Shown: positions 51,034 through 64,000 of the stretch, piece after piece
Layout of the letters: each line of letters starts with the position of its first letter
Numbering within the stretch: position 1 is the stretch's first letter
Assembly (NCBI RefSeq): GCF_947501165.1
Contig: NZ_CANMUU010000003.1
Span: forward strand, 1-64,000
DNA length: 64,000 bases
From: an uncultured Allomuricauda sp.
GTDB taxonomy: Bacteria > Bacteroidota > Bacteroidia > Flavobacteriales > Flavobacteriaceae
Reading direction: 5' to 3'
Program-made: the position numbers and the translations under genes
The notes under the pieces: model-generated
The model's input: only the letters and a program-made list of their open reading frames with translations
The model's database searches: none
Told to the model about the DNA's origin: nothing

Positions 51034-51246
51034 CCCTCCTTTGCTCAAAATGAGCTTGAGCTACGGAGGACAAATCCATATTCACCGAAGCCTTGGCGAA
51101 GGTGATAGCGTTAGGGATAGAGGTAAGTGCCATGCACAACCGATAGCCCGGTGCTCCGAAGCTTTAGCCAAAGAGCAAACGCCCACTTCTTGATACATCA
51201 TGCAAGCATGATACTTGAAGTGACACTGGTTCTTTGATAAAAAAAT

Positions 51247-51274
51247 GAGAGATTCTCGCCTTCGCGGGAATGAC
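51247..51274 (-). repeat. Short dispersed repeat (GTCATTCCCGCG type) beside ssrA
   Basis: On the minus strand GTCATTCCCGCGAAGGCGAGAATCTCTC, with an internal hairpin around CGCGAAGGCG. Related GTCATTCCCGCGAAGGCGGGAATC elements are widespread dispersed repeats in bacteria. It ends 12 bp before the tmRNA and shares its GTCATT start and AATCTC segment with the element at 18771. Confidence 0.6.
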
Positions 51275-51286
51275 AATACTCATTAC

Positions 51287-51682
51287 GGGGCCGACTGGTT
51301 TTGACAGCGAGACCAATGGCAATGTAAGCATGTCGAGCGCTGGAATACAGCTCGTTAATCTCATGTTTCACACTTTTAATTGGCGATAATAATTACGCTC
51401 TTGCCGCATAATCTGAATTATAGTAGGATTTGCCTCGTCCTTACTAGGTAGGGAAGCGAGATGTTCCTGGGTAGCCCTTGTTGATGGCGACCCGTTTAGG
51501 AGCACCAGAAAAGTCAACATAAGGTTAGTGTTCGCTTTGGCACTAACACTAAAACTTTAAGAAGCTAAGTGTACGATAGGCGGTCTTTGGTCGGTCGTGC
51601 ATCGAAAACCAAACAAAGTCTAAGCATGTAGAAAGCCTTGCAATTGCTTGTTTGGACGAGGGTTCGAATCCCTCCGGCTCCA
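51287..51682 (+). ncRNA. ssrA: Transfer-messenger RNA
   Basis: Rescues stalled ribosomes and tags the nascent protein for proteolysis. The 5' end GGGGCCGACTGGTTTTGACAG and the 3' end GGTTCGAATCCCTCCGGCTCC form the tRNA-like half, with acceptor GGGGCCG paired to CGGCTCC and discriminator A at 51682; no CCA is encoded. The tag frame is 51381-51410 and reads GDNNYALAA-stop, so with the charged alanine the tag is A-GDNNYALAA, typical of Bacteroidota. A hairpin terminator follows, then the fossil integrase, making this the likely attachment site of the downstream island. Confidence 0.97.
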
Positions 51683-51705
51683 CTGAAAACCCAATAAGTT
51701 TCATC

Positions 51706-51742
51706 AAAAACCCTGTAATCGTATGATTTACAGGGTTTTTTG
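51706..51742 (+). terminator. Terminator of ssrA
   Basis: AAAAACCCTGTAA and TTACAGGGTTTTTT pair around a loop of about nine bases, followed by a T run. The 178 bp from here to 51920 are AT-rich with no further feature seen. Confidence 0.85.
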
Positions 51743-51920
51743 TTTGCTTTACTCTCAATTGAATTCAAATAAAACTATCCTATAAGGGTGTTATTAGGTG
51801 TCTATTTCATATGTTTTTTTAGTGACCCCGAATACAGTATAAATTAAAACATATCAACAAGTTACGATAAAATATTGATTTGTTTTTTATATATTTATTA
51901 TACTAAAATGTATTCATTTA

Positions 51921-52247
51921 ATGCAGAATTCATTCCACACTCTGTTTTATATCAAAAAAAGTAAGGCTGATAAAAAAGGTTATGCCAATGTGTATTTAAG
52001 AATTACAATAGATGGGCAGCGAACTGAAATAAGCATAAATAGGAAAGTTCCCGTCGAGAAATGGAATGGTAGAGCATGACGGGTAAAAGGCGTCAGTCAA
52101 GTTGCTCAGGAAATTAACTCGTATATAAATTCGTTGACTGCAAAGCTCAACAGAATTCACCAGAATCTTGTTGAGAGTAATACCCCAATATCCTCACTCA
52201 TCCTAAAGAATATCTTTCTGAACAATGGAAAAAAACAAAGATGTTAA
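51921..52247 (+). pseudogene. Fossil N-terminus of a Bacteroidota tyrosine integrase
   Basis: Reading from the ATG at 51921 gives an Arm-DNA-binding domain: SFHTLFYIKKSKADKKGYANVYLRITIDGQRTEISINRKVPVEKW, then NGRA, an in-frame TGA at 52077-52079, then RVKGVSQVAQEINSYINSLTAKLN, which fits the helical segment following that domain. In intact relatives the stop is occupied by glycine (GGA), so one G-to-T change explains it. The catalytic R-H-R-Y part is missing; the frame ends at 52247 inside the broken epimerase. Its place after the 3' end of ssrA, the usual target of such integrases, marks it as the remnant that inserted the island. Confidence 0.82.
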
Positions 52248-53153
52248 AGTTGCATCATTTTTAAATTCCATATTCGGGAATTCAAGGGGCGTATAAATAA
52301 CAACGGCCGGCTGTTTTGAAAATACCTTCATACATATTCCACTCTTCTCAGAATACAGTCCAGCCGAAAAGGGTTTATGATTCAGCACGTAAACGTCATC
52401 AAGTCCCGACGAAGGTATCTTTTTGATTTTTCCTTTTTGGACAAAATCATAATACGTTTGCGAACAATTCAATATTTTCCCAGTAGGAACCTTTCTTTCG
52501 TCCAACTCTAGTATTTTGTTACTATTAATCTGTAGGTAGTGTTCAGAAACGCTGCCTTCCCCATTAAGATTATAATAAGCATGATTTGTTAAGTTGAGTA
52601 CTGTGGTCTGGTCAGTTATAGCAGTATATACAATTCGCAGAGCGTTTGATTCCAAAAGATCGTATTCCACTGTAATTTTCACATTCCCGAGATAACCACC
52701 TTCCATATGCTCGCTTAATAAACTGAATTTCAAACTGTTGTTACGACTGTTTTTAGTAGAAATCACCTCCCAAAGTTTTTTATCGAATCCTGCCCTGCCA
52801 CCATGTAGATGTACTCCACCATTTTCATGGTCCAAATTGTACTTCTTACCTTCCAACTCAAAGTATCCTTTGGATATACGACCTGCATATCTGCCTACGG
52901 TACATCCATGATATAAATTGTATTCTTGATATTTGGGAGATGCATAATCCTATGCACTATCCAGTCCCACTACCGCATTAACCAAATGATTATTACGATC
53001 CGGTACTTTTAATGATATTAGGGTGGCACCGTAGCTGCATACTTCCATATTCATTCCTTTGGAATTTGTCAATTTGATTACCTCCATAATCATCGGTCTA
53101 TTTTCCTTGGCAACATTGGCGTTCATTATCCCGAGATAAGAGTATAAATTCAA
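52203..53153 (-). pseudogene. galM: Broken aldose 1-epimerase (galM)
   Basis: One reading frame holds a galactose-mutarotase-like sequence interrupted by a TAG at 52950-52952. Before it: MEVCSYGATLISLKVPDRNNHLVNAVVGLDSA; after it, in the same frame: DYASPKYQEYNLYHGCTVGRYAGRISKGYFELEGKKY and HENGGVHLHGGRAGFDKKLWEV, with the catalytic-region motif VLNLTNHAYYNLNGEG. Most relatives have a glutamine-like residue where CAG has become TAG. The C-terminus is also short: after AVVIYTPLEFPNMEF it stops about 45 residues early, in DNA shared with the integrase fossil. Mutarotase activity is therefore doubtful. Confidence 0.85.
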
Positions 53154-54679
53154 TGACTAGCCTGATAAACCCTCACATAATCCACTTCCATCTTTTGTGG
53201 TAATGCTTTGTCGTCAATATCGAACCCGGGCCAATTCCCTCCAATAGCAAAATTGATAATGAAGAAAAATGGCTGATTATATGGCCAGTTTTCTTTGGTC
53301 TTTTCTTGCGGTTCATAGGTGTAGTATAGGGTGTCATCCACAAAAAAGTCTATCTTTTCATTATTCCACTCCATCGCATAGACATGAAATGCCTCAGCGG
53401 CAGTGCCTATTTGTATACTTCCAGTATGATTATGAGACCCATGTGCCATTGTATTATGAACGGTACCGTGTACCGTGTTTTGCAGTCTTCCAATGTGCTC
53501 CATGATATCCAATTCTCCACAAGTAGGCCAACCCACTTCTTCGATATTGCTGCCCAACATCCAAAGGGCGGGCCATGTCCCATTTCCCTTAGGTAATTTG
53601 GCACGAAATTCCATTCTTCCGTATTGAAATTCACGTTTACCCTGTGAGTTTACCCTTCCTGAAAGATATGTATCCCCAACTTTCTTTGCAGTAATTATGA
53701 GCTTTCCATCTTCCACTGCAATGGTTCCGCTTTTTACGTAGGTCTGCAGTTCGTTGTTCACCCAGCCTGGTTTAGCTTCTCGGATGTTCCAATTAAGTGT
53801 ATCCAAAACAGGATCATCAAACTCATCTGACCAAACAAGTTGCCACTTCTTTTGTTCTGTGGTTCTTGAGTCTGCATTGGTATCCACAAATTCCAATAAA
53901 AGTGGAAATGCAGGTTCTGTCATTTGATGACCATACCCGTCCAATTCAAACAATTTAATTTTTGAATGCCCCATTACTTTCATCATTCGCATGAAATAAG
54001 CATTCTCTTCATAGCGACCTAAAAGTTCAAGTTCCCTATCCCCCGTAACGAGCAAAATTGGAGGAGCATCTTTTCTAATATGATATAGTGGCGCGAACTC
54101 ATCGATTATGGGCTGCGTGCCGGAAATACCCTTTTCTTTTCTGATGGCAAAGTGTGTTATAGTGTGACCGCTTAGTGGCACTATCCCAGCCAGGTTATTT
54201 GCATCAATAGTATGCCTTGATAACCACTTTTTGTCCAACCCAATCATACTAGCCAAATAGCCGCCTGCTGAATGGCCTGAAACAAAAATTTTGTTAGGAT
54301 TACCTCCATAGTCCTTAATATTTTTAAAGACCCACGCTACAGCTGCAGCTGCATCTTCTAAATGTTCAGGGTTCTTTGCTTTAGGATATAATCTGTAATC
54401 GACAGCGACTATGCCGATTCCTTGTTCCTTAAGTCGTTCCGGAATAAACTTATTGCCACCTTCCAATCCCCCTCCATGAAACCAGACTATTGTAGCGAAA
54501 TCCTTTTTATTATTTGGATGGTAAATATCCAAGACACATTTTTTAGCTACGTAAGCATCAGATGTGTTAATGGAATCTGGATAATACTGAATGTTGAAAA
54601 CTGAGGAGTATGCATCTTGCTGGGCTTGATTTGCTTGTACTGCCGATAGGCACAAAAACAACAAAATCAATTTTTTCAT
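53150..54679 (-). CDS. Esterase-GH16 fusion glycoside hydrolase
   Basis: A 509-residue exported protein (signal MKKLILLFLCLSAVQANQAQ). Residues about 40-265 are an alpha/beta-hydrolase: oxyanion loop IVWFHGGG (64-71), nucleophile Ser137 in GHSAGG, Asp214 in VTGDRE and His251 in GYGHQ. Residues about 280-507 are a GH16 (laminarinase/galactanase-like) domain: WSDEFDDPVLDTLNW, WPALWMLG and the catalytic E389-x-D-x-x-E394 motif GELDIMEHIG. Both active sites look complete. It overlaps the sulfatase stop by one base (TAATG), so the two are co-translated. It would cut a beta-1,3-linked glycan and remove an ester group. Confidence 0.88.
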   Translation of the reverse strand: MKKLILLFLCLSAVQANQAQQDAYSSVFNIQYYPDSINTSDAYVAKKCVLDIYHPNNKKDFATIVWFHGGGLEGGNKFIPERLKEQGIGIVAVDYRLYPKAKNPEHLEDAAAAVAWVFKNIKDYGGNPNKIFVSGHSAGGYLASMIGLDKKWLSRHTIDANNLAGIVPLSGHTITHFAIRKEKGISGTQPIIDEFAPLYHIRKDAPPILLVTGDRELELLGRYEENAYFMRMMKVMGHSKIKLFELDGYGHQMTEPAFPLLLEFVDTNADSRTTEQKKWQLVWSDEFDDPVLDTLNWNIREAKPGWVNNELQTYVKSGTIAVEDGKLIITAKKVGDTYLSGRVNSQGKREFQYGRMEFRAKLPKGNGTWPALWMLGSNIEEVGWPTCGELDIMEHIGRLQNTVHGTVHNTMAHGSHNHTGSIQIGTAAEAFHVYAMEWNNEKIDFFVDDTLYYTYEPQEKTKENWPYNQPFFFIINFAIGGNWPGFDIDDKALPQKMEVDYVRVYQASH

Positions 54680-56121
54680 TAATTCGATTTAGAATTTCCA
54701 CCACCTTGATAATTAGGATTTGGTTCAGGCAATTTGGCGTTCATTTCCAATAGCGTTGCATTCATTTTTTCCTTCAAGGTTTCAAATCGCTCGGGGTCTT
54801 CCTTTATACGATTATTGCTTTCTGAAAGGTCCGTCTTTAGATTAAAAAGCTCATAACGGTCATCTTCATAATGATGGATTAGCTTCCAATCCCCTTCGCG
54901 ATAAGCAGTGGACGGCTCTCCCCCTTGCGGACTATAGTGCGGTAAATGCCAGAGCATACCACGTTCAGGTAACGTTTTACTCTTAAATAAAGGAGCAAGG
55001 CTAACACCATCGGAAGTTCTTTTTTTAATTCCAGCAACTTCCATGATGGTATTAAAAAAATCCTGACCCACAACAGGTGTTGAATCCAATTTAGCTTCTC
55101 GGATTACCAAAGGCCAACGTATCAACAAAGGTTCGCGAATACCTCCTTCATAGACGTAGCCTTTTCCTTCGCGCAACATTCCGTTATCCGTTGGAGGAGT
55201 GTGTTTGGCAAAGGCAGGTACTTCCCTTACTGAAAGTCCACCGTTGTCTGAAGTAAAGATGACAATTGTATGCTCTTCAAGGTCCAATTCATTAAGCTTC
55301 TTTAAAATTCGACCTACATTGATATCAATACTCTCCACCATGGCTGCATAGTGAATGTTGGGCAATAGGGGTTCATCAGTTGCACCTCGCTTTTTTCGAT
55401 ATTTTTCCACTAAACTGTCCTTGGCTTCAATGGGTACATGAGGCGAATAGTAATTGAGGCTCATGAAAAAGGTTGAGTCCTTTTTTTGGGTAATGTATTC
55501 TATCGCTTTATTTGTCAATACATCAGTGAGGTAATCACCTTCTTTTGAAGTATCCTGGATTTCAGGTTTTTCGCCAGGTGCAAAAAATGGATAAAAAAAG
55601 CTCTGTGGAAGTCCGTTCCACGCACCTGCAATATTCAAATCAAATCCACGGTTATCAGGCTTAAATTTTCCACCACCAAGATGCCATTTCCCTATAAACG
55701 CTGTGTGATAATTTTTTTCTTTCAATGCCTCGGCAATCGTCTCGAACTCCACATTCAGTTGTTGTGCAATAGGCGGTGTTTGGAGTTTTTGATTGGGCCC
55801 TGCAGGATGGTTACCGTGGATATGCTCTGTAATATTGACCGTGATAGGATGCAATCCTGTCATTAGGCTTGCTCTGGAAGGACTACAAAGTGGTGCCGCT
55901 GCATAGGCGTCCGTAAATCGAATACCATCGGAAGCCAATCTGTCCAGATTAGGTGTCTCAATAAAGTCATTGCCGTAGCAGCCCAAGTCATACCAACCAA
56001 GGTCATCAGCAACAATCATGATGATGTTTGGATTCCCGGGTATGCTTTTTTCACCACAAGAGACTAGAAAACATAAAACTATAGCGGCTTTAAAAAAATT
56101 ATTGTTGAAACGAATTGGCAT
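54679..56121 (-). CDS. Formylglycine (S1) sulfatase lipoprotein
   Basis: A 480-residue lipoprotein (signal ending CFLVSC, Cys22). The metal and substrate site VADDLGWYDLGCYG leads to CSPSRASLMTG; Cys79 in C-x-P-S-R is the residue converted to formylglycine. Further metal ligands are in FTSDNGGLS and GKWHLGG. This type removes sulfate esters from carbohydrates. It is followed directly by the esterase-GH16 gene. No separate maturase gene lies in the window. Confidence 0.92.
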   Translation of the reverse strand: MPIRFNNNFFKAAIVLCFLVSCGEKSIPGNPNIIMIVADDLGWYDLGCYGNDFIETPNLDRLASDGIRFTDAYAAAPLCSPSRASLMTGLHPITVNITEHIHGNHPAGPNQKLQTPPIAQQLNVEFETIAEALKEKNYHTAFIGKWHLGGGKFKPDNRGFDLNIAGAWNGLPQSFFYPFFAPGEKPEIQDTSKEGDYLTDVLTNKAIEYITQKKDSTFFMSLNYYSPHVPIEAKDSLVEKYRKKRGATDEPLLPNIHYAAMVESIDINVGRILKKLNELDLEEHTIVIFTSDNGGLSVREVPAFAKHTPPTDNGMLREGKGYVYEGGIREPLLIRWPLVIREAKLDSTPVVGQDFFNTIMEVAGIKKRTSDGVSLAPLFKSKTLPERGMLWHLPHYSPQGGEPSTAYREGDWKLIHHYEDDRYELFNLKTDLSESNNRIKEDPERFETLKEKMNATLLEMNAKLPEPNPNYQGGGNSKSN

Positions 56122-56266
56122 TTTGAATTGGATTACATCTTCAAAAGCTAAATGTAGTAAAGCATGGAAAAAGTTGCATCATGTACCCACCTGTATCTCC
56201 CCCCCTATGCCACAGGATACTTTTCAAAGAATAAAACAGGAATTTTAAAGTATAAACATTTGAGGT

Positions 56267-57715
56267 ATGAAACATTTATGTAAAAGTGTCTTGCTGGTTT
56301 GGCTATTTCACCATCCTTTCTTTACCAGTGCCCAAAAAATCACCATGGACAATACTATGCCCAGATTGGATGAAAAAGGACAAATTGTTGATGCGCATGA
56401 TGGGAGGGTCATTCAATTTGGAGATACTTATTATTGGTATGGCACCGCCTATGGAAATACAAATGGATTTACCACACAAAACCAGTATCGATGCTATACC
56501 TCAAAAGATATGATGAACTGGAAATATGAGGGAAGATTATTGGAAGCCCCACCTGAAGGGGTATATTACAGACCACATGTGATTTACAATAAAAGGACCA
56601 AGAAATATGTGCTTTGGTACAATTGGTATCCCAAACTTTGGGAAGGACAATTTGGTGTGGCCATAAGTGATACGCCACAAGGGCCTTTCAAAATTGTGAA
56701 TGAAAATGTGCAGATGCACAATTCAAAAATTGGTTTGGGAGACTTTGGCCTCTTTGTTGATGATGACGGAACGGGATATATCAGCTATAATACTATCCAG
56801 AACCATCAAGTGTCCGTTGAAAAACTAAGCAATGACTACTTGTCATCTACCCTTGAAAATGGTGGCACCATATCCCAGCACATGGAAGCGGGTACCATGT
56901 TCAAAAAGGATGGAAACTATTATTTGCTAACGGATTATACCTGCTGTTTTTGCAATTATGGTTCGGGGGCAAGAGTCTACATGTCCAATAACCCTTTGAA
57001 AGGCTATAGGTTGACTACGAATATTAACCGCTACCCCGGGAAATATGCTGCTTTGCTCAACGATGGGGTAACCCGGGGTATCCTTTATGAAACCCTAACA
57101 AAAAATGAAGACGGGTTTGATGCTGTTGAAGTCAATTTTAATGAAAAGCATAACATTGACAAGATAACATTACATGTCTTCACGGGAAACCGACCTGAAA
57201 ACTGTGGTGATATAAACAATCCTAGAGTACACCCGGAAATTAAAACCCCGGAATTTAATGTCTTTGCTTGGGACTATGACGGATGGAAAAAAATCAATAT
57301 TGAAAGTCGGAATGTATCCAAGTCTGCACTGAAGGAAAAAATCAAATTGGAATTGAAACCTACCTTTTCCAACAGATTTAAAATTGTTCCTTCGGAAAGT
57401 GAAACAAACCTCTATGTGAATGAAGTCGAATTATTTAATGAAGAAGTTTCTGAAAACACCAAGGGACACTTTTTTATTATAGGCCCTAAAATTCCACAGA
57501 AACCCATCATCCCTGCTCAACAGACCTATGTCATGAAATTGAACACGGATAAAGGCGAAGCATACATCTGGATGGGTGACTTATGGGGTTCGGCCTCGGA
57601 CAACATAAAAGGGCATGATTATCAGTATTGGAGTGCCCCATTGCAATTCAACCCTGATGGAACCATAAAATCCATGCAATGGACCGATAGCTGGTCTTTC
57701 GAATTAAAAAAATAA
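56267..57715 (+). CDS. GH43-like glycoside hydrolase with inserted discoidin-like domain
   Basis: A 482-residue exported enzyme (signal ending FFTSAQ). The five-bladed GH43 propeller is recognisable: GQIVDAHDGRVIQFGDTYYWYGTAYG (40-63), YYRPHVIYNKRTKKYVLWYNW, GDFGLFVDDDGTGYISY (158-174) and QHMEAGTMFKKDGNYYLL (204-221; Glu207 is the likely acid). Residues about 275-395 (VEVNFNEKHNIDKITLHVFTG, TPEFNVFAWDYDGWKKI, LYVNEVELF) look like an F5/8-type C discoidin fold placed inside the catalytic unit. The final WMGDLWG and YWSAPLQFNPDGT resemble exo-beta-1,3-galactanase-type GH43 (subfamily 24). It is on the opposite strand to its neighbours. Confidence 0.78.
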   Translation: MKHLCKSVLLVWLFHHPFFTSAQKITMDNTMPRLDEKGQIVDAHDGRVIQFGDTYYWYGTAYGNTNGFTTQNQYRCYTSKDMMNWKYEGRLLEAPPEGVYYRPHVIYNKRTKKYVLWYNWYPKLWEGQFGVAISDTPQGPFKIVNENVQMHNSKIGLGDFGLFVDDDGTGYISYNTIQNHQVSVEKLSNDYLSSTLENGGTISQHMEAGTMFKKDGNYYLLTDYTCCFCNYGSGARVYMSNNPLKGYRLTTNINRYPGKYAALLNDGVTRGILYETLTKNEDGFDAVEVNFNEKHNIDKITLHVFTGNRPENCGDINNPRVHPEIKTPEFNVFAWDYDGWKKINIESRNVSKSALKEKIKLELKPTFSNRFKIVPSESETNLYVNEVELFNEEVSENTKGHFFIIGPKIPQKPIIPAQQTYVMKLNTDKGEAYIWMGDLWGSASDNIKGHDYQYWSAPLQFNPDGTIKSMQWTDSWSFELKK

Positions 57716-57722
57716 TGCGTTG

Positions 57723-58769
57723 CTACTCTACTTGAGCAAGTTGGTTCCCAATTCCGATAATAATTGTGGAAGCAATCAACATGGCTAGGCCAAAGGTCAA
57801 TACTAGAATTGCTTTTTTACTTACGCCCCTCCACTCTTTGGTGATTAAGCCCCACATTGTACTAAAAATGATGATAAAAGCCATATGCAGTGTCCAACTG
57901 GCAAAGTCATGCTCACTCATTTGTGTGGTTCCCATACCGTAAAACATGAATTGACAATACCAAGTGCTGCCTGCAATGGCGGCGAAAAGATAATTTATTT
58001 TTAAAGGTGTTGTTTTGTTACTATAATCCTTATAGCTCTTCTTTTTAATATTCAAATAGACACACCAAATCAAATTGGAAGTAAGTCCTCCTGCAAGGAT
58101 GACAATAAAAACAGGGCCGTTTTGCCATAATACCGGAGCACTATTCTGAACGGCTAACTCAGAAATGTGGCTTCCCGCCGCAATCCCAAAAGCAAAGCAA
58201 GCACTCATTATACCGGCAAAAATGGCGACGATAATTCCTTTTTTGAGGTTGAATTCTTTAACACCCTTTTGTTTTTCCTCATCAGAAAGTTCTCTGTCCT
58301 TAAGAATCCCAGCCCTACCACAAATCACGATTCCGACAAGACAAATTCCAATTCCTATTAACACTACCTGGCCTGAAGTGGTTTGCAAAAGTGAATTGAA
58401 TTTTCCTTCGTAAATGGGAGGTATTAAGGTTCCAAAAGCCGCAGTAAGTCCCAAAGCCAATGCCATCCCCAGGGACATTCCCAAATAACGCATGGTCATT
58501 CCAAAGGTCAACCCCCCAATTCCCCAAAGCACTCCAAAGAAATAGGTCCAAAACAGCGTAGAAAAATCGGCTTTGGATAAAATAGTCACGGTTTCCGGTA
58601 CCGTAAGCACGGAAACCATCCATGGAACAATTAACCAAGCAAAGAAACCATTAACGAGCCAACCACTTTCCCAAGACCATCCTTTAATTTTTTTAATAGG
58701 AAGGTAGAAAGAGCCCGCAGCAAATCCTCCGATGGCGTGAAAAAGAATTCCAAAAAAAGAATTGATCAT
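57723..58769 (-). CDS. rhaT: L-rhamnose-proton symporter
   Basis: A 348-residue inner-membrane carrier with ten hydrophobic segments. FGILFHAIGGFAAGSFYLPIKKIKGWSWESGWLVNGFFAW at the N-terminus and FGMTMRYLGMSLGMALALGLTAAFGTLIPPI mark the RhaT family, which imports L-rhamnose with a proton. Length is typical. It is downstream of the isomerase-like and rhamnosidase genes in the same direction, consistent with uptake of rhamnose released by the GH78 enzyme. Confidence 0.9.
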   Translation of the reverse strand: MINSFFGILFHAIGGFAAGSFYLPIKKIKGWSWESGWLVNGFFAWLIVPWMVSVLTVPETVTILSKADFSTLFWTYFFGVLWGIGGLTFGMTMRYLGMSLGMALALGLTAAFGTLIPPIYEGKFNSLLQTTSGQVVLIGIGICLVGIVICGRAGILKDRELSDEEKQKGVKEFNLKKGIIVAIFAGIMSACFAFGIAAGSHISELAVQNSAPVLWQNGPVFIVILAGGLTSNLIWCVYLNIKKKSYKDYSNKTTPLKINYLFAAIAGSTWYCQFMFYGMGTTQMSEHDFASWTLHMAFIIIFSTMWGLITKEWRGVSKKAILVLTFGLAMLIASTIIIGIGNQLAQVE

Positions 58770-58803
58770 TTTGGTTGTGTTTTTTGAATAGCTTTATGGG
58801 ATT

Positions 58804-60219
58804 TCAGCAAATTTTGATGTGCTCAATAGATAGCAAGTTGGCCAGTTTATTAATAGTGGAAGATTTATGTCCTACACCTATTGCACAATGATGTGATGGC
58901 CCAGCCATTGACCATTGATTTATAAAATCCCTTATGGAAATTGGAAACCTGTATCGTGAATTTGTATTTCCGATCTGCAGTGTTGGGCCATCAACGGATT
59001 CACCTTCGGCGGTAAGCAAATAGATTTCTCCCATGCTGTTTTGGCATACAGATAATAGTGTCACGGGACCGCTGGCAACCTTCATTTGAATGGACAATCC
59101 TTTTCCTGGCTTTCCGTGATAAACGGGTAACGGTACCAAACCTACCCGGCCATCGGCCATTGTAAAATGTGCAGGCCCGTCATGCCCCAGAAGAATGACA
59201 TCATCTTCAAAATCCATCGCATAAAACTCTGAAAAAGAGCCCCCTGCTCCTAAAATATCTATAATTTTCATGGCCTGAACATTCTTGATTTCCAGCTCTC
59301 CGGCAACAGGTATGTTTTTTCCAGTAAGGGCCGTAAAACCGGGAATCAGTGAAGTGACAATATCTTCATAACCAGGGTCTCCATCGCCTTCATAATAATA
59401 TGCCAATGAGCCAAGTTGAAACTTCTCCACTAGCTTATCCAACGCCACCGATGTTTGTGCCGCCCGTTCCAATTCATGATTATCACAATCTTTTGATACT
59501 TCAAACAATGTATTGAACTCCTCTATTTTTTGCCTTATTTCTCCATTCGAGACCTGTTCTCGGATACTCTTCAACGTGCCAAACTCCAAAATCTCAAAGT
59601 GGTTTCCAAAAACAATGGCCTGTTGGGTCAAATCACTGTAAACATCTAGCATACCATTGTAGTAATGGCCCAAAACTCCCACACGAGTGTCGCTCATGGT
59701 TTTGACAACCGTAAACGCATCGATATATTCTTTGATTTCTTTCCACACATAATCTTCCCCCAGATAACCAGAAACCAGGTAAAAGTCAATATTAGCCCTA
59801 TTAAATACGCTTGAGATCTCTGGAGCCACGCAACTCTGGCAATAGGCCAACCATTCACCCGTCATTTTTCCTCGATCACCCATAGCATTGATTTTTTTGT
59901 AATCGATGGCTTTTTCTGGTTGAAGGTTAAGCACAACAATTGGCACCTTGGTCTTTTGCGCTACGGGCAACACGTTATGGGAAAGCGCGTAAGTGGAAAT
60001 GAACAGAAAAATGCAGTCAACGTCACTTGTATTAAAAAGAGCAGCTGCTGCATTTGCTTTGTAAGGATCATCAACCATTCCAGCATCAATGACTTCTACT
60101 TCAAACCCTTCAATTCTTTTCTTTATGGCGTTCTGATATCCAATCAATCGTTCTTGTAACCCTTCAAACTGCCCCCAGTAGGTATCTAATCCAATACCAA
60201 ACAATCCTATTTTAATCAT
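58804..60219 (-). CDS. L-arabinose/L-fucose isomerase-like protein
   Basis: A 471-residue cytosolic protein of the AraA/FucI superfamily: IGLFGIGLDTYWGQFEGL at the start, LVSGYLGEDYVWKEIKEY in the middle and EFYAMDFEDDVILLGHDGPAHFTMADGRVGLVPLPVYHGKPGKG, with LLTAEGESVDGPTLQIGNTNSRYRF and QWSMAGPSHHCAIGVGHKSS near the C-terminus, where the family binds metal and sugar. It lies between GH78 and rhaT in one apparent operon (34 and 51 bp gaps). The natural substrate may be L-rhamnose or another deoxy sugar; this is inference. Confidence 0.82.
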   Translation of the reverse strand: MIKIGLFGIGLDTYWGQFEGLQERLIGYQNAIKKRIEGFEVEVIDAGMVDDPYKANAAAALFNTSDVDCIFLFISTYALSHNVLPVAQKTKVPIVVLNLQPEKAIDYKKINAMGDRGKMTGEWLAYCQSCVAPEISSVFNRANIDFYLVSGYLGEDYVWKEIKEYIDAFTVVKTMSDTRVGVLGHYYNGMLDVYSDLTQQAIVFGNHFEILEFGTLKSIREQVSNGEIRQKIEEFNTLFEVSKDCDNHELERAAQTSVALDKLVEKFQLGSLAYYYEGDGDPGYEDIVTSLIPGFTALTGKNIPVAGELEIKNVQAMKIIDILGAGGSFSEFYAMDFEDDVILLGHDGPAHFTMADGRVGLVPLPVYHGKPGKGLSIQMKVASGPVTLLSVCQNSMGEIYLLTAEGESVDGPTLQIGNTNSRYRFPISIRDFINQWSMAGPSHHCAIGVGHKSSTINKLANLLSIEHIKIC

Positions 60220-60270
60220 TACGAATAGTCTACTTAATACATAATCTGAAAAACTCCGATTTGAAGCTTT

Positions 60271-62625
60271 TTATTCTGTTGCTTCAACTTTGTAATAGCC
60301 TGAATCAATTTCGAATAGTTTAAAACCTTCTTCTTCGGTATAAACCACTTCCACTCCATTTACCATTATGTCTTTGTATTTCGAAGGAATATAAACTGTT
60401 GCCTTTGTTTCAGCCGGAACTTTTATAATCAGTTGATACGTTTCTTTATTTTTCACTTCCACCTTAACGGTTCCCTTCACTGTAGGAACCACGGCGGAGA
60501 TATGTTTTAAAAATCCGGGTTGCGGCTTTACCTGAAAGGTTTCCCACCCAGGGGAGGTAGGTTCTATGCCTGCGGCATACTGATACAACAAAGTAAGGCC
60601 CCCACCACTCCATGCGTGATTGGTGGTTCCCCCTCCAAAACCTTCCGCACCAATACCCCAACCTTCCCACAGGGTGGTATAGGTAGTATCGAGTACCATT
60701 TTGGAAAAGCGTTCTTTCATTCGTTCTAAGGCATAATCGGCATAACCCATTTGAAATAGTGCTTCCAACACATACTTCTCCATGTAAGGACTAGCGTGTT
60801 TTTCTTTTTGAAGGACTTGATAGATGGCTTCATATTTGTCAGAATCCGCTAAGCCTGCAACCACAGCTAATCCTTGGGAACGGTCATCCGTTTCACCTTT
60901 GTAATTTGCCGATTTGTAATGATTACCCTTCCAGAAAGTTCTATTAAAGGATTTTTTAAAGCGACTCATCTCTTTTCGAACACTATCCGCTTCTTTTTTG
61001 TTGCCCAAAGCTTCAGCCATATTCGCATATCCCTTCAAGGCCATAAAAAATTGTGTGTTTTGAATTAGTGGCATGTCTTTATTTTCACCCCAATCACCCA
61101 AATTCCAACCCCCTTGCCTTTCTTTGACAACACCTTCTTTCGTGTACTTCCAAACAGAAAGATAGCGTTTCACCGGGGCATAAATCTGTGCTATGGTCTC
61201 CAAATCACCGGTATTCAGATAATAGTTCCAAAAACCATAGTGTCCCACGCTGGACAACATCTGTCCAGGTAATTCTTGATCCCAGATTCCCGTGGGAATT
61301 GGAGAGAAAATAGTGCTGTCAGGACGTTGCCAGTTCATCAGTTCCAGCATTCCTTTTCTCATCAATGCATCTGATGAACGACCTAATGCATAGAAGGCTT
61401 CACCACTTTCCAATACCACATCGCCCCACCACTGGGCACGTTCACGGCCCGGAGTATCCATATAATTGTCGCGCATGGTTACGTACAGCGTTCGCACAGC
61501 TTTTTTGCACATTTGATTGTAAAAATCATCATCTACCTGAATGCTGCCGGTAAATTCAGTATCATACCCTGTTTCGCGATATTTCAGGCCAAGAACTTCT
61601 ACGCCTTCGGGAATCACATAGTACATTGTATGCCCATTGATCCAACCCAATGATTCATAAGATTGCTCACCCTCTTTGGTAATAAACTCTGCTCGCATAT
61701 TATATTCTGAGCCTCCTTTGTAATTATCAGTGAGCATGGTAATTTTTTCACCTGCGTTGGCATTGACTTTTAAAAAGGGTGTTGCCTGTGTATTATAGGG
61801 CAACTCACACTTTATGGTATCTCCCTTACTGATAAAAGGAAAGCTAATTTCATTTTCGTAGGTTTTTAACCCGGAATCCTTCCAGAAGGGAATTGGTCTT
61901 TTGATAAGATTATTCCAAGGTGGTGTGATTCCTGTTCCGAGTACTCTTGCAAAAGGCCAGTTGCTATCATTAAATTCTGGATTTACCCACTCGGAGATAT
62001 CTTTCCGTGCATCAAAAACCAGATTGGATTCGGGTAATCGCCAGTTGGGTTGGGGATTTGCACTTTCGGAAATATATGCGGGATGCGGTATTGCTTTCCA
62101 GGTATCGTCAGATTGAACCATCAACTGGTCATTTTGAAACAATTCGGCTATCATTCCTGCTTGACCACTGGATTTATGAGTCATCCCTTCCTTACCAAAA
62201 TACCAAACCAATAGTGCCAGTGTATTGCTTCCTTTTTGAAGTTTTCCACTCAAATCCACCTCATCATAGTAGGTGTCATTAGGTGTTGGACCACGTTTTA
62301 AACCACCCTCAAATAGCATCATTTCACCATTGAGGTAGAGCCAGTATTTGGAATCGACTGCAATGCGCAAAGTTGCGGGAGTTTGTTCGTTTTCAACTAC
62401 AAATTGCTTTCGAAATGCAATCCATGCGTTTTTTTCGGGTAATTGATTTTTCGGAGTAATCCAACTGGCTTGCCAGCTGGTCTTTATGATTGGATGATAA
62501 TCGTATTGCTTTGGTTGGATCTCTTTTTGAGGGTCTTTATGTTTATCGCAGGATTCAAGTGCCAATAATAGCATGAACAGGTAGCAAAAACTATATTGAA
62601 TTCTATGTAATTTAAAAGCTTTCAT
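60271..62625 (-). CDS. Alpha-L-rhamnosidase (GH78) lipoprotein
   Basis: A 784-residue lipoprotein (signal ending LLLALESC). N-terminal beta domains with QASWITPKNQLPEKNAWIAFRKQF and RIAVDSKYWLYLNGEMM precede the six-hairpin catalytic domain: DNYMDTPGRERAQWWGDVVLESGEAFYALGR near 395-425 (the GH78 acid region), GHYGFWNYYLNTGD, and GADSEGFGG-like WGIGAEGFGGGTTNHAWSGG near 670, then a C-terminal beta sandwich. It would release terminal alpha-L-rhamnose outside or on the surface of the cell. Its ATG overlaps the GH2 stop by 4 bp. Confidence 0.92.
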   Translation of the reverse strand: MKAFKLHRIQYSFCYLFMLLLALESCDKHKDPQKEIQPKQYDYHPIIKTSWQASWITPKNQLPEKNAWIAFRKQFVVENEQTPATLRIAVDSKYWLYLNGEMMLFEGGLKRGPTPNDTYYDEVDLSGKLQKGSNTLALLVWYFGKEGMTHKSSGQAGMIAELFQNDQLMVQSDDTWKAIPHPAYISESANPQPNWRLPESNLVFDARKDISEWVNPEFNDSNWPFARVLGTGITPPWNNLIKRPIPFWKDSGLKTYENEISFPFISKGDTIKCELPYNTQATPFLKVNANAGEKITMLTDNYKGGSEYNMRAEFITKEGEQSYESLGWINGHTMYYVIPEGVEVLGLKYRETGYDTEFTGSIQVDDDFYNQMCKKAVRTLYVTMRDNYMDTPGRERAQWWGDVVLESGEAFYALGRSSDALMRKGMLELMNWQRPDSTIFSPIPTGIWDQELPGQMLSSVGHYGFWNYYLNTGDLETIAQIYAPVKRYLSVWKYTKEGVVKERQGGWNLGDWGENKDMPLIQNTQFFMALKGYANMAEALGNKKEADSVRKEMSRFKKSFNRTFWKGNHYKSANYKGETDDRSQGLAVVAGLADSDKYEAIYQVLQKEKHASPYMEKYVLEALFQMGYADYALERMKERFSKMVLDTTYTTLWEGWGIGAEGFGGGTTNHAWSGGGLTLLYQYAAGIEPTSPGWETFQVKPQPGFLKHISAVVPTVKGTVKVEVKNKETYQLIIKVPAETKATVYIPSKYKDIMVNGVEVVYTEEEGFKLFEIDSGYYKVEATE

Positions 62626-64000
62626 TGCAATGGGATAATTTTAAATGAGTAGCTATACGGTTTTGCATCAACCTGGAAAGCCTTATGTGGACGTGCATCC
62701 AAATTCCAGGTATTGTCTCCCCCCACTCCCATTTGTTTATGATCAATGTTCAAGGTAATGGTTTCTCCAAAAGTCAATTCCTCAATGCGGTTAGACTTTT
62801 CAATTTGTTCTTGGGTAAAGGGCCAAGCGCTGAAACTTACCGGATAACCAACGGATTCAATGCGAAGGCCTCTTCCAGCAGTATTCCTCAATTCTGCCCA
62901 ATGCACTTCTGCCTTGTTACTGCTTTCCTGTGGACGTACATAGTGGGTAAAATCATTCTTTACCGATTCTTGGTAATTCCCGAAAAAGGCTCCGGTTTTT
63001 TTATCAGAATAACTTTCCAAAGGTCCTCGCCCAAACCATTCGAGTTGGTCATATTCTGAGGGGATTTGCAATTGCCAGCCCACTCTTGGTATTTCAGGCA
63101 TATTGGCTTCGGGCTGGAATTGGTAGTACACCTGTAAGGTTCCTTCTACATCAATATGGTAGGTCTGTGTTACTATCGCGTTGGATTGGGCCAGCCTATG
63201 TTTGGTGATGACCTCAATACCATTTTCAGTACTTGAGGTGACCATGTTGAGCAGCTCTTGGCTATCAGAGGCTGTTTTCCAGATACCTTGGCGCTTTCCC
63301 ATCCCCGAAGCACCATCGTTATCTGTCGGAGGTCGCCAAAAGTTTGGTTTGGGAGCTGCACTGACCATGTTTCTCCCATTAATTGCATAAGTAATCAAAC
63401 GACCTTCTTTTTTATCAAAGGCCACTTTTATGTTGACGGTGGTTATGGTAACCGCAGATGTTGATTCAACAAGTCTTGGAGCTGCTGTCTCTGTAACCAT
63501 TTTTGAATTAGGTATATAGCCCAAGAGAAACTGCTCGCTGGCTAGGGCATAGCCTTTCTTAGCCCATGGTTGGTCTTCTTTTAAAATGAAGGAAATGGTA
63601 AGGTGGTATCGAAGCCCTTCTTTGGCTTCAAAAATGGGTAAATCTAATTGTAATGCTCCTTTTTGACATGCTTCAATATCGGGTGAATCTACAATACCGT
63701 TTTTAATGACTTGTCCATCCTCAGCGATTTCCCAAATCACATCATAGGCGTTCAAATTTGTTCTGAAATGGCGATTTTCTACTTTGAACAGACCTTTGGA
63801 AATGCTATCGGCAGTAATTTTGACCCGCTGCCATACATATTTGGCTTGCCATCCCCCAGATTTTATCTTTCCATCAGCAGAAATCAATCCCTTTTGAACA
63901 GGGTTTAAATCGGCTTGTTCCTGACCAAAGTCTTGCCCATGTTTCCATAATGGCTTTGCATCCTTACTTTCCTTAAAAACCAATTGGTCCCGCCAATCCC
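62622..64000 (-). CDS. Beta-galactosidase (GH2, LacZ-like), C-terminal part, truncated by the window edge
   Basis: The reading frame stays open to the right edge: the first visible residues are DWRDQLVFKESKDAKPLWKHGQDFG, matching the IWDWVDQ...GDFG region of LacZ-like enzymes. The start is therefore beyond 64000, and the TTG at 63983 is internal. The remaining 459 or so residues hold the linker and Bgal_small_N-type sandwich: NFWRPPTDNDGA, RVGWQLQIPSEYDQLEWFGRGPLESYSDKKTGA, HYVRPQESSNKAEVHW, QMGVGGDNTW and the last strands. It would remove beta-galactosyl residues and is the upstream member of the GH78-isomerase-rhaT unit. Confidence 0.9.
   Translation of the reverse strand, partial: DWRDQLVFKESKDAKPLWKHGQDFGQEQADLNPVQKGLISADGKIKSGGWQAKYVWQRVKITADSISKGLFKVENRHFRTNLNAYDVIWEIAEDGQVIKNGIVDSPDIEACQKGALQLDLPIFEAKEGLRYHLTISFILKEDQPWAKKGYALASEQFLLGYIPNSKMVTETAAPRLVESTSAVTITTVNIKVAFDKKEGRLITYAINGRNMVSAAPKPNFWRPPTDNDGASGMGKRQGIWKTASDSQELLNMVTSSTENGIEVITKHRLAQSNAIVTQTYHIDVEGTLQVYYQFQPEANMPEIPRVGWQLQIPSEYDQLEWFGRGPLESYSDKKTGAFFGNYQESVKNDFTHYVRPQESSNKAEVHWAELRNTAGRGLRIESVGYPVSFSAWPFTQEQIEKSNRIEELTFGETITLNIDHKQMGVGGDNTWNLDARPHKAFQVDAKPYSYSFKIIPLQ

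Follow-up and report, generated by a model that had tools for sequence, protein, structure and literature searches.

An ssrA-docked island in Flagellimonas, very probably the remnant of an integrative element, carries a polysaccharide utilisation locus

Background

Islands docked at RNA genes and polysaccharide loci on mobile DNA are both already known, and the closest parallel found for the island described here is the family of ssrA islands of Dehalococcoides (vcr-GI; PMC3146451). The subject of this study is a stretch of 64,000 nucleotides (the window; C3:1-64000) from a 3.73-Mb genome of the genus Flagellimonas (G000), and in particular the island at 51,684-88,762 (37,079 bp), which is docked at the 3' end of the transfer-messenger RNA (tmRNA) gene ssrA and continues beyond the window on the same contig. 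According to the accessible part of their description, the Dehalococcoides islands are similarly stacked downstream of a single tmRNA gene, with 20-bp repeats of its 3' end, catabolic cargo and a conserved motif just upstream of the repeat, and they occur with or without an integration module (PMC3146451). They differ in using a serine recombinase, where a tyrosine integrase with an Arm-DNA-bind_5 domain is involved here, in that the same part describes no conjugation genes, and in having reductive dehalogenases among their cargo instead of a polysaccharide locus.

Within the Bacteroidota, a polysaccharide locus on mobile DNA is documented in gut Bacteroides, where most variable regions were without mobile-DNA functions in the available sections of that paper (PMC8845570); here the host is a marine Flagellimonas, the target is ssrA, and the element, although decayed, can still be read at its two ends. 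ICEEa1 and ICEEaIII of Elizabethkingia (PMC5458099, PMC10973501; available text) are integrative conjugative elements (ICEs) of the flavobacterial group, the former with a Bacteroidetes-type type IV secretion system and the latter with a tyrosine recombinase, but they are inserted in mutY and a tRNA-Glu gene, not in ssrA, and carry resistance or other cargo. The 10K island of Riemerella (PMC6764341; available text) likewise combines a tyrosine integrase, an RNA gene as target and direct repeats, and its excision has been shown, whereas its target is tRNA-Arg, its repeat 53 bp long and its content 12 open reading frames (ORFs).

A recent Flagellimonas paper stressed vertical inheritance of alginate loci, and its main text contains neither 'integrase' nor 'tmRNA' (PMC12323373, as available); in the available text of PMC10973501 and PMC9366087, tmRNA appears only as a gene count. 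Among literature titles and abstract openings, a coverage outside which most subscription journals lie, no ssrA-docked element in Flagellimonas and no polysaccharide locus at ssrA was found. The vehicle by which polysaccharide loci are transferred is often invisible. In the present case both ends, an empty site, a broken integrase, a junction scar, mosaic cargo and relatives with whole integrases (one of them with the same locus) can be read together, which makes one path by which feeding genes spread directly readable; the unusual aspects are the apparently imported tmRNA and the legibility of the decay.

Results and discussion

The island and its two ends

The left boundary falls precisely at the 3' end of ssrA, since relatives diverge into different downstream types right after GGCTCCAC; the CGGCTCC whose end a first-pass annotation of the window placed at 51682 actually ends at 51,681. 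The same annotation had suggested looking to the right of 64 kb for a second copy of the ssrA 3' end, and this was found at 88,740-88,762 (attR; Table 1). A whole-genome search with the 20-bp ssrA end (up to three mismatches) returned three sites, namely ssrA itself, C3:88,741-88,760 (two mismatches, same strand) and one three-mismatch site on another contig, so that the distal copy is the sole non-ssrA site within two mismatches in the genome. Because an identical 23-base variant terminates a 13.5-kb ssrA-docked island in G013, the two differences in attR look like the element's own arm sequence and not like decay. The arm motif beside attR occurs once in C3:1-183,000 when two mismatches are allowed.

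The sequence to the right of attR has the character of a displaced native flank, and the empty site expected in relatives was recovered in four of the genomes in the genus set (71 genomes, including G000). The flank (CTACGCCCTCCGAAGCTT...) directly follows ssrA in G061 (18 of 18 bases, after which the contig ends), begins with the first base after ssrA in G011 (77% over 376 nt) and G023 (71% over 364 nt), and takes the same place in G024 (78% over 347 nt, the BLAST alignment starting from base 33 and the first bases matching by eye); all four are congeners, none of the same species as G000. The occupied state is seen in G066, in which ssrA is followed by an intact integrase, 13.5 kb, the core and then a G000-type flank (83% over the first 64 nt, plus further collinear pieces). 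In G016 and G021, ssrA and the downstream exonuclease gene are spaced by 468 and 593 bp, and the G000 flank has a match between them for its final portion only. In keeping with the description of the upstream half of the window, the flanks look like core genome: of 56 genes drawn from both sides of the island, 30-48 were matched over more than 80% of their length within the regions retrieved for each of five congeners.

Two other origins of the distal repeat were rejected. One was a tRNA or tmRNA fossil, but neither gene was called at the repeat. The other was a dispersed GIY-YIG repeat, but the stretch concerned is without a second full copy in the genome, where it has one further partial match of 28 bp. 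About 100 bp inside the right end, at contig 88632-88655, lies a T-arm-like sequence in inverted orientation (around TCGAAC), which is similar in G000, G020 and G022, and is possibly another integrase binding site. The 103-aa protein of the right flank is without a Pfam match; DNA or protein searches find it again between ssrA and the exonuclease gene, or close by, in G011, G013, G024, G048, G061, G066 and G022.

A broken integrase fused to a broken epimerase

The tmRNA gene had been reported to be followed within 240 bp by an integrase arm-domain fossil, and the ORF concerned (51,921-52,076; PF17293, E 6e-11) indeed starts 238 bp after ssrA. Extended over 51,945-52,187, the PF17293 match reaches 1.6e-16 and includes a single in-frame TGA. 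Collinearity of the integrase frame holds as far as about 52,241, and 108 codons fit ahead of the junction, the TGA stop being codon 53; next to ssrA in G000, the integrase is present as this fossil only. Beyond it lies the broken epimerase of the first-pass annotation, with one in-frame stop and a cut C-terminus, in which two Pfam-matching pieces share one frame. Homology to the longer epimerase of G022 begins at 52,247, which sets the junction at 52,246/52,247. This junction is best read as a single deletion that would have removed about three quarters of the integrase together with the end of the epimerase. As the integrase is fused at codon ~108 to the epimerase, most likely by deletion, the island is no longer self-mobile.

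A dock shared across the genus

ssrA and the exonuclease gene occur on one contig in 42 genomes, where they always share a strand and are separated by 468 bp to 204 kb. In 27 of the remaining genomes the two are on separate contigs, while G055 has no exonuclease ortholog and G049 gave no match to ssrA. The 42 genomes hold 24 core copies outside ssrA (0-1 mismatch), of which 17, from 16 genomes including G000, lie inside the ssrA-exonuclease interval and have the orientation of ssrA, against an expectation of 0.22 (p 6e-30 if the copies are treated as independent). Exact copies number 12 inside the interval and 0 outside, and the seven copies elsewhere all have one mismatch. The core was picked from G000, without which 16 of 23 copies are inside; the reversed core pattern gave 12 matches across all 71 genomes. 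The ssrA-to-exonuclease interval is an insertion hotspot across the genus.

The sequence 3' of ssrA could be followed in 54 of the 71 genomes (one of these contexts being only 18 nt). Integrase homologs start 206-249 bp past ssrA, on the same strand, in 19 contexts including G000, and two more hold C-terminal integrase pieces only. A left-end arm motif is found at +105/106 from ssrA in 10 contexts, while at the right end the arm motif ACCTATTCGGTGAGC lies 89-91 bp before the core end, within two mismatches, at 13 of the 16 distal sites covered (a set without the G067 copy, for which the sequence was not retrieved) and is exact in G000. The leader that follows ssrA in G000 opens with a terminator-like hairpin (CCCTGTAAT..GATTTACAGGG, then a T run) and has similar counterparts in relatives (nearest G039, 85% over 61 nt). 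Since a hairpin CCTGTAAA..TTTACAG stands downstream of ssrA in 26 of the 54 contexts, and a variant missed by that pattern in G000, the elements appear to bring their own terminator. A concrete attachment (att) system is thereby defined (15-bp core, with arm motif and integrase at fixed distances), which can be scanned for and tested.

Thirteen islands are att-bounded. An integrase is present at ssrA in those of G000 (as the fossil), G020, G066, G044 and G040, and a C-terminal piece in that of G035. Matches to both SusC and SusD (G020-derived markers) were obtained in three, G000, G020 and G035, with a SusC-like match only in G066; a polysaccharide cargo as a general feature of ssrA islands was rejected on this count and because of the other cargo in G066, G044 and G040 (Tra genes in the last). 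The ssrA-docked islands of G066 and G044, both with intact integrase, contain a cytosine methylase and further matches to defence models (PADLOC), among them a CARF-kinase-AAA model match in G066, so that defence-type cargo is present at the same dock. The arm motif (1-2 mismatches) was further noticed inside the islands of G013 (position 2740), G044 (10502/17092) and G064 (1493), ahead of different sequence like GGTTCTGGTCTTTATAC, hinting at a second end type or at internal module boundaries.

Relatives with the same locus

The rhamnosidase of the island was detected in 5 of 71 genus genomes (E 1e-60 or better) and in 15 of 299 sampled genomes of the family, G000 being included in both counts; it lies inside the ssrA-exonuclease interval in G000, G020 and G022 and elsewhere in G005 and G041. 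G020 has 19 locus genes, from sulfatase 1 to galT, in the order and orientation of G000 and ending 0.2 kb before a core copy, within an ssrA-docked, att-bounded unit of 152 kb that also encodes an intact integrase, TraM, DUF4138 and TraG. G040 has an att-bounded unit of 46.7 kb with integrase, TraG, coupling protein and DUF5712. No protein was identified as a relaxase by named family. The set by which an ICE is recognised (type IV secretion system, coupling protein and relaxase) was not found in G000, and the island is therefore termed a relic and not an ICE.

In G022 the locus, extra genes included, also lies in the ssrA interval and is followed by a decayed core, with about 70 kb of other DNA between ssrA and locus, and no integrase was found at ssrA. 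The first-pass annotation had named the same gene order from ssrA through GH2 in distant relatives with no integrase as an observation that would speak against an island. G020 does not provide it, having an intact integrase; G022 comes nearer with none found at ssrA, but it is a near relative, with the intervening DNA and the decayed core just described.

An apparently imported tmRNA gene and mosaic cargo

In trees of 51 genomes, the closest relatives of the G000 ssrA are those of G039, G020 and G048 (support 0.96 for the group with G039/G020, 0.91 on adding G048 and 0.48 for the pair with G039), whereas the gene 345 bp upstream of ssrA groups with G022 and G061 (0.98). Because the two trees contradict each other, the tmRNA gene of G000 seems to have been imported. 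In 100-nt blocks it is 95-98% identical to that of G039 and 71-90% to that of G022; over the full gene, identity to G000 ranges across the genus from about 76 to 100%, and G000 and G022 differ at 18% of positions. The alignment places the switch between trees at or just before the ssrA 5' end. A stretch just upstream of ssrA (..TAATTCGTTT.CGGTAAG..AAGCTTACCT..) is kept in G022, G039, G020, G048, G061 and G005; G000 is without it (window 51240-51286) and has a short palindrome-like TTCTCGCCTTCGCGGGAATGACAAT instead, and G064 and G016 are also without it.

Along the locus, 1-kb windows from 52,250 to 69,250 (n = 18) are nearer to G020 in nine cases and to G022 in seven, with two tied, while of those from 70,250 on (n = 19) 18 are nearer to G022 and one is tied; 53-55 kb is nearest to G005. 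Differences to G000 at fourfold sites, core versus locus, are 0.67/0.46 for G020, 0.44/0.38 for G022 and 0.64/0.55 for G005 (48, 37 and 32 core genes and 19, 19 and 17 locus genes, respectively), and the corresponding median protein identities are 78.4/84.6, 95.1/90.9 and 82.6/83.9. The simplest reading of the mosaic is homologous recombination between docked islands, in which the recombining copy could be that of G000, G020 or G022.

Proposed origin and alternative explanations

The island is very probably the remnant of an ssrA-specific, probably conjugative, integrative element with glycan-use cargo. Insertion by such elements restores the end of the RNA gene. In the proposed course of events, the tyrosine integrase would have recombined the short core TCCCTCCGGCTCCAC on the element with the same core on the chromosome at the ssrA 3' end; the insertion would also have brought the terminator-like hairpin and moved what had stood downstream of ssrA to the other end of the element, beyond a core copy. 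A later deletion would then have fused integrase codon ~108 to the epimerase near the end of that gene, with loss of self-mobility.

Several observations weigh against this account or limit it. The left-end arm motif is absent from G000 at up to two mismatches, three of the 16 distal sites are without the right-end motif (6-8 mismatches at best), and seven of the 13 att-bounded islands show no integrase at ssrA at the search threshold used. The contrast in codon use proposed for either side of 51.7 kb did not appear when tested as GC content at third codon positions (0.377 for island and core alike, p 0.34), and overall GC (0.37-0.40 left of ssrA, 0.39-0.42 right) was uninformative. Compared with the 19 other ssrA-side matches, the fossil shows 39-46% identity to 17 and 34-35% to the remaining two, and with identities as low as these it is not the integrase of G020; the two leftmost genes, the epimerase and the GH16 fusion, are unmatched in G020 at 45% identity or more. 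The locus of G022 stands to the right of the 103-aa gene, which in G000 stands to the right of the locus, and the two are therefore not one unchanged insertion; an unchanged ancestral insertion common to G022 was accordingly not supported, order differing and divergence being mixed. None of the Tra markers searched for is present in the G000 island, and the term 'conjugative' therefore rests on the relatives. Finally, a foreign-looking ssrA and apparently mosaic cargo are not what simple integration gives; on the simplest reading of both, homologous recombination also took part. The first-pass view that an island entered at ssrA and then lost mobility is thus supported but incomplete, and of its hope of bounding and dating an acquisition, the bounds were obtained and the date was not, the evidence giving relative divergence only.

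That homologous recombination with DNA of a congener in which an island was already docked at ssrA supplied all or part of the G000 copy, for example after high-frequency-recombination (Hfr)-like conjugal transfer with the element as its starting point, has a little less than an even chance. One crossover would then lie at or just before the ssrA 5' end and others in the locus, site-specific integration having taken place in another lineage or earlier. The conflicting groupings of ssrA and its upstream neighbour, the closeness of ssrA to G039 over G022, and the mixture of G020-like and G022-like windows to 69,250 followed by nearly uniform affinity to G022 are all consistent with it, and chromosome transfer from resident ICEs is described for Bacteroides (PMC8845570, available text). 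On the other hand, the right boundary lies exactly at the core with the native flank beyond, as integration gives, the change of ssrA could be a separate gene conversion, and it could be the copy of G020 or G022, instead of that of G000, that became mosaic.

Two further alternatives were considered. It is unlikely that the element was never conjugative and was an integrase-plus-cargo island mobilised in trans by other elements. In favour, G066 and G044 each hold an att-bounded island in which the integrase at ssrA is intact but no Tra marker of those searched for is present, and the accessible text on the Dehalococcoides ssrA islands calls them mobilizable and not conjugating (PMC3146451). Against it, integrase and Tra genes stand together in one att-bounded unit of G020, whose cargo and right end are the same. 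Highly improbable is an ancestral locus that was lost in relatives, with the distal repeat a tRNA fossil or chance match. The presence of the rhamnosidase in the same interval of G020 and G022 allows some common history, and the T-arm-like inverted stretch about 100 bp left of the repeat would suit a fossil; yet the rhamnosidase was detected in five of the 71 genomes of the genus, G000 included, the difference between G000 and G020 at fourfold sites is smaller in the locus than in the core, the arm motif that accompanies the distal core is common to other element ends, and no tRNA or tmRNA call was made at the repeat.

A broader picture can be put forward tentatively, at somewhat under even likelihood: the ssrA 3' end would serve as a genus-wide dock at which ICE-type elements deliver feeding loci, defence and other cargo, and recombination between docked islands would reshuffle the cargo and drag the tmRNA gene across species. 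In the present case a tmRNA gene has likely passed between species together with an island, and if the picture is true, a core translation-rescue RNA would have been replaced as a by-product of a change of diet.

Cargo

Table 1. Features of the island and its borders (contig positions; the window ends at 64,000)
Feature	Position	Strand	Basis or remark
ssrA (tmRNA), intact	51287..51683	+	ARAGORN; Rfam RF00023, 158.6 bits
attL, final 15-23 bases of ssrA	51661-51683	+	ARAGORN; Rfam
Left-end leader of element	51684..51920	+	Sequence; terminator-like hairpin directly after ssrA
Tyrosine integrase fossil, N-terminal ~108 codons, rest missing	51921..52246	+	Pfam PF17293 (Arm-DNA-bind_5)
Aldose 1-epimerase pseudogene, one in-frame stop, truncated C-terminus	52247..53153	-	Pfam; alignment to G022 copy
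Esterase (BD-FAE) + GH16 fusion	53150..54679	-	Pfam
Sulfatase 1	54679..56121	-	Pfam
GH43	56267..57715	+	Pfam
RhaT, rhamnose transporter	57723..58769	-	Pfam
Sugar isomerase (arabinose isomerase C-terminal domain)	58804..60219	-	Pfam
Alpha-L-rhamnosidase, presumably GH78-type	60271..62625	-	Pfam
GH2-type beta-galactosidase, extending beyond window	62622..65792	-	Pfam (C-terminal part of GH2)
Sulfatase 2 to galT, beyond window, same contig	65789-88477		Contig ORFs; Pfam
Arm motif, 15 bp	88673-88687		Motif search
attR, second ssrA 3' end	88740-88762	+ (ssrA strand)	21/23 identical to ssrA end, last 15 identical; just past last carbohydrate gene
Displaced native flank: GIY-YIG remnant			Right of attR
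Displaced native flank: 103-aa protein	89869-90180		Right of attR
Displaced native flank: exonuclease	90525-91886		Right of attR

The claim that only carbohydrate genes follow to the right edge of the window held for all seven further ORFs scanned to 64,000 (Pfam). Over the whole locus, the Pfam content comprises sulfatases, the GH16-esterase, GH43, the rhamnosidase, two GH2, SusC/SusD, RhaT, isomerases, an FGGY kinase, an aldolase/dehydrogenase fusion, an FMN dehydrogenase, galK and galT. SusC/SusD (SusD_RagB, TonB plug domain) stand beside glycoside hydrolase (GH) families, the arrangement by which a polysaccharide utilisation locus is recognised, and the cargo is one such locus, with enzymes that fit the breakdown of rhamnose and galactose. 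Judged from these predicted functions, the locus would serve to bind and degrade a sulfated polymer with rhamnose and galactose among its sugars, which looks like a sulfated algal sugar polymer.

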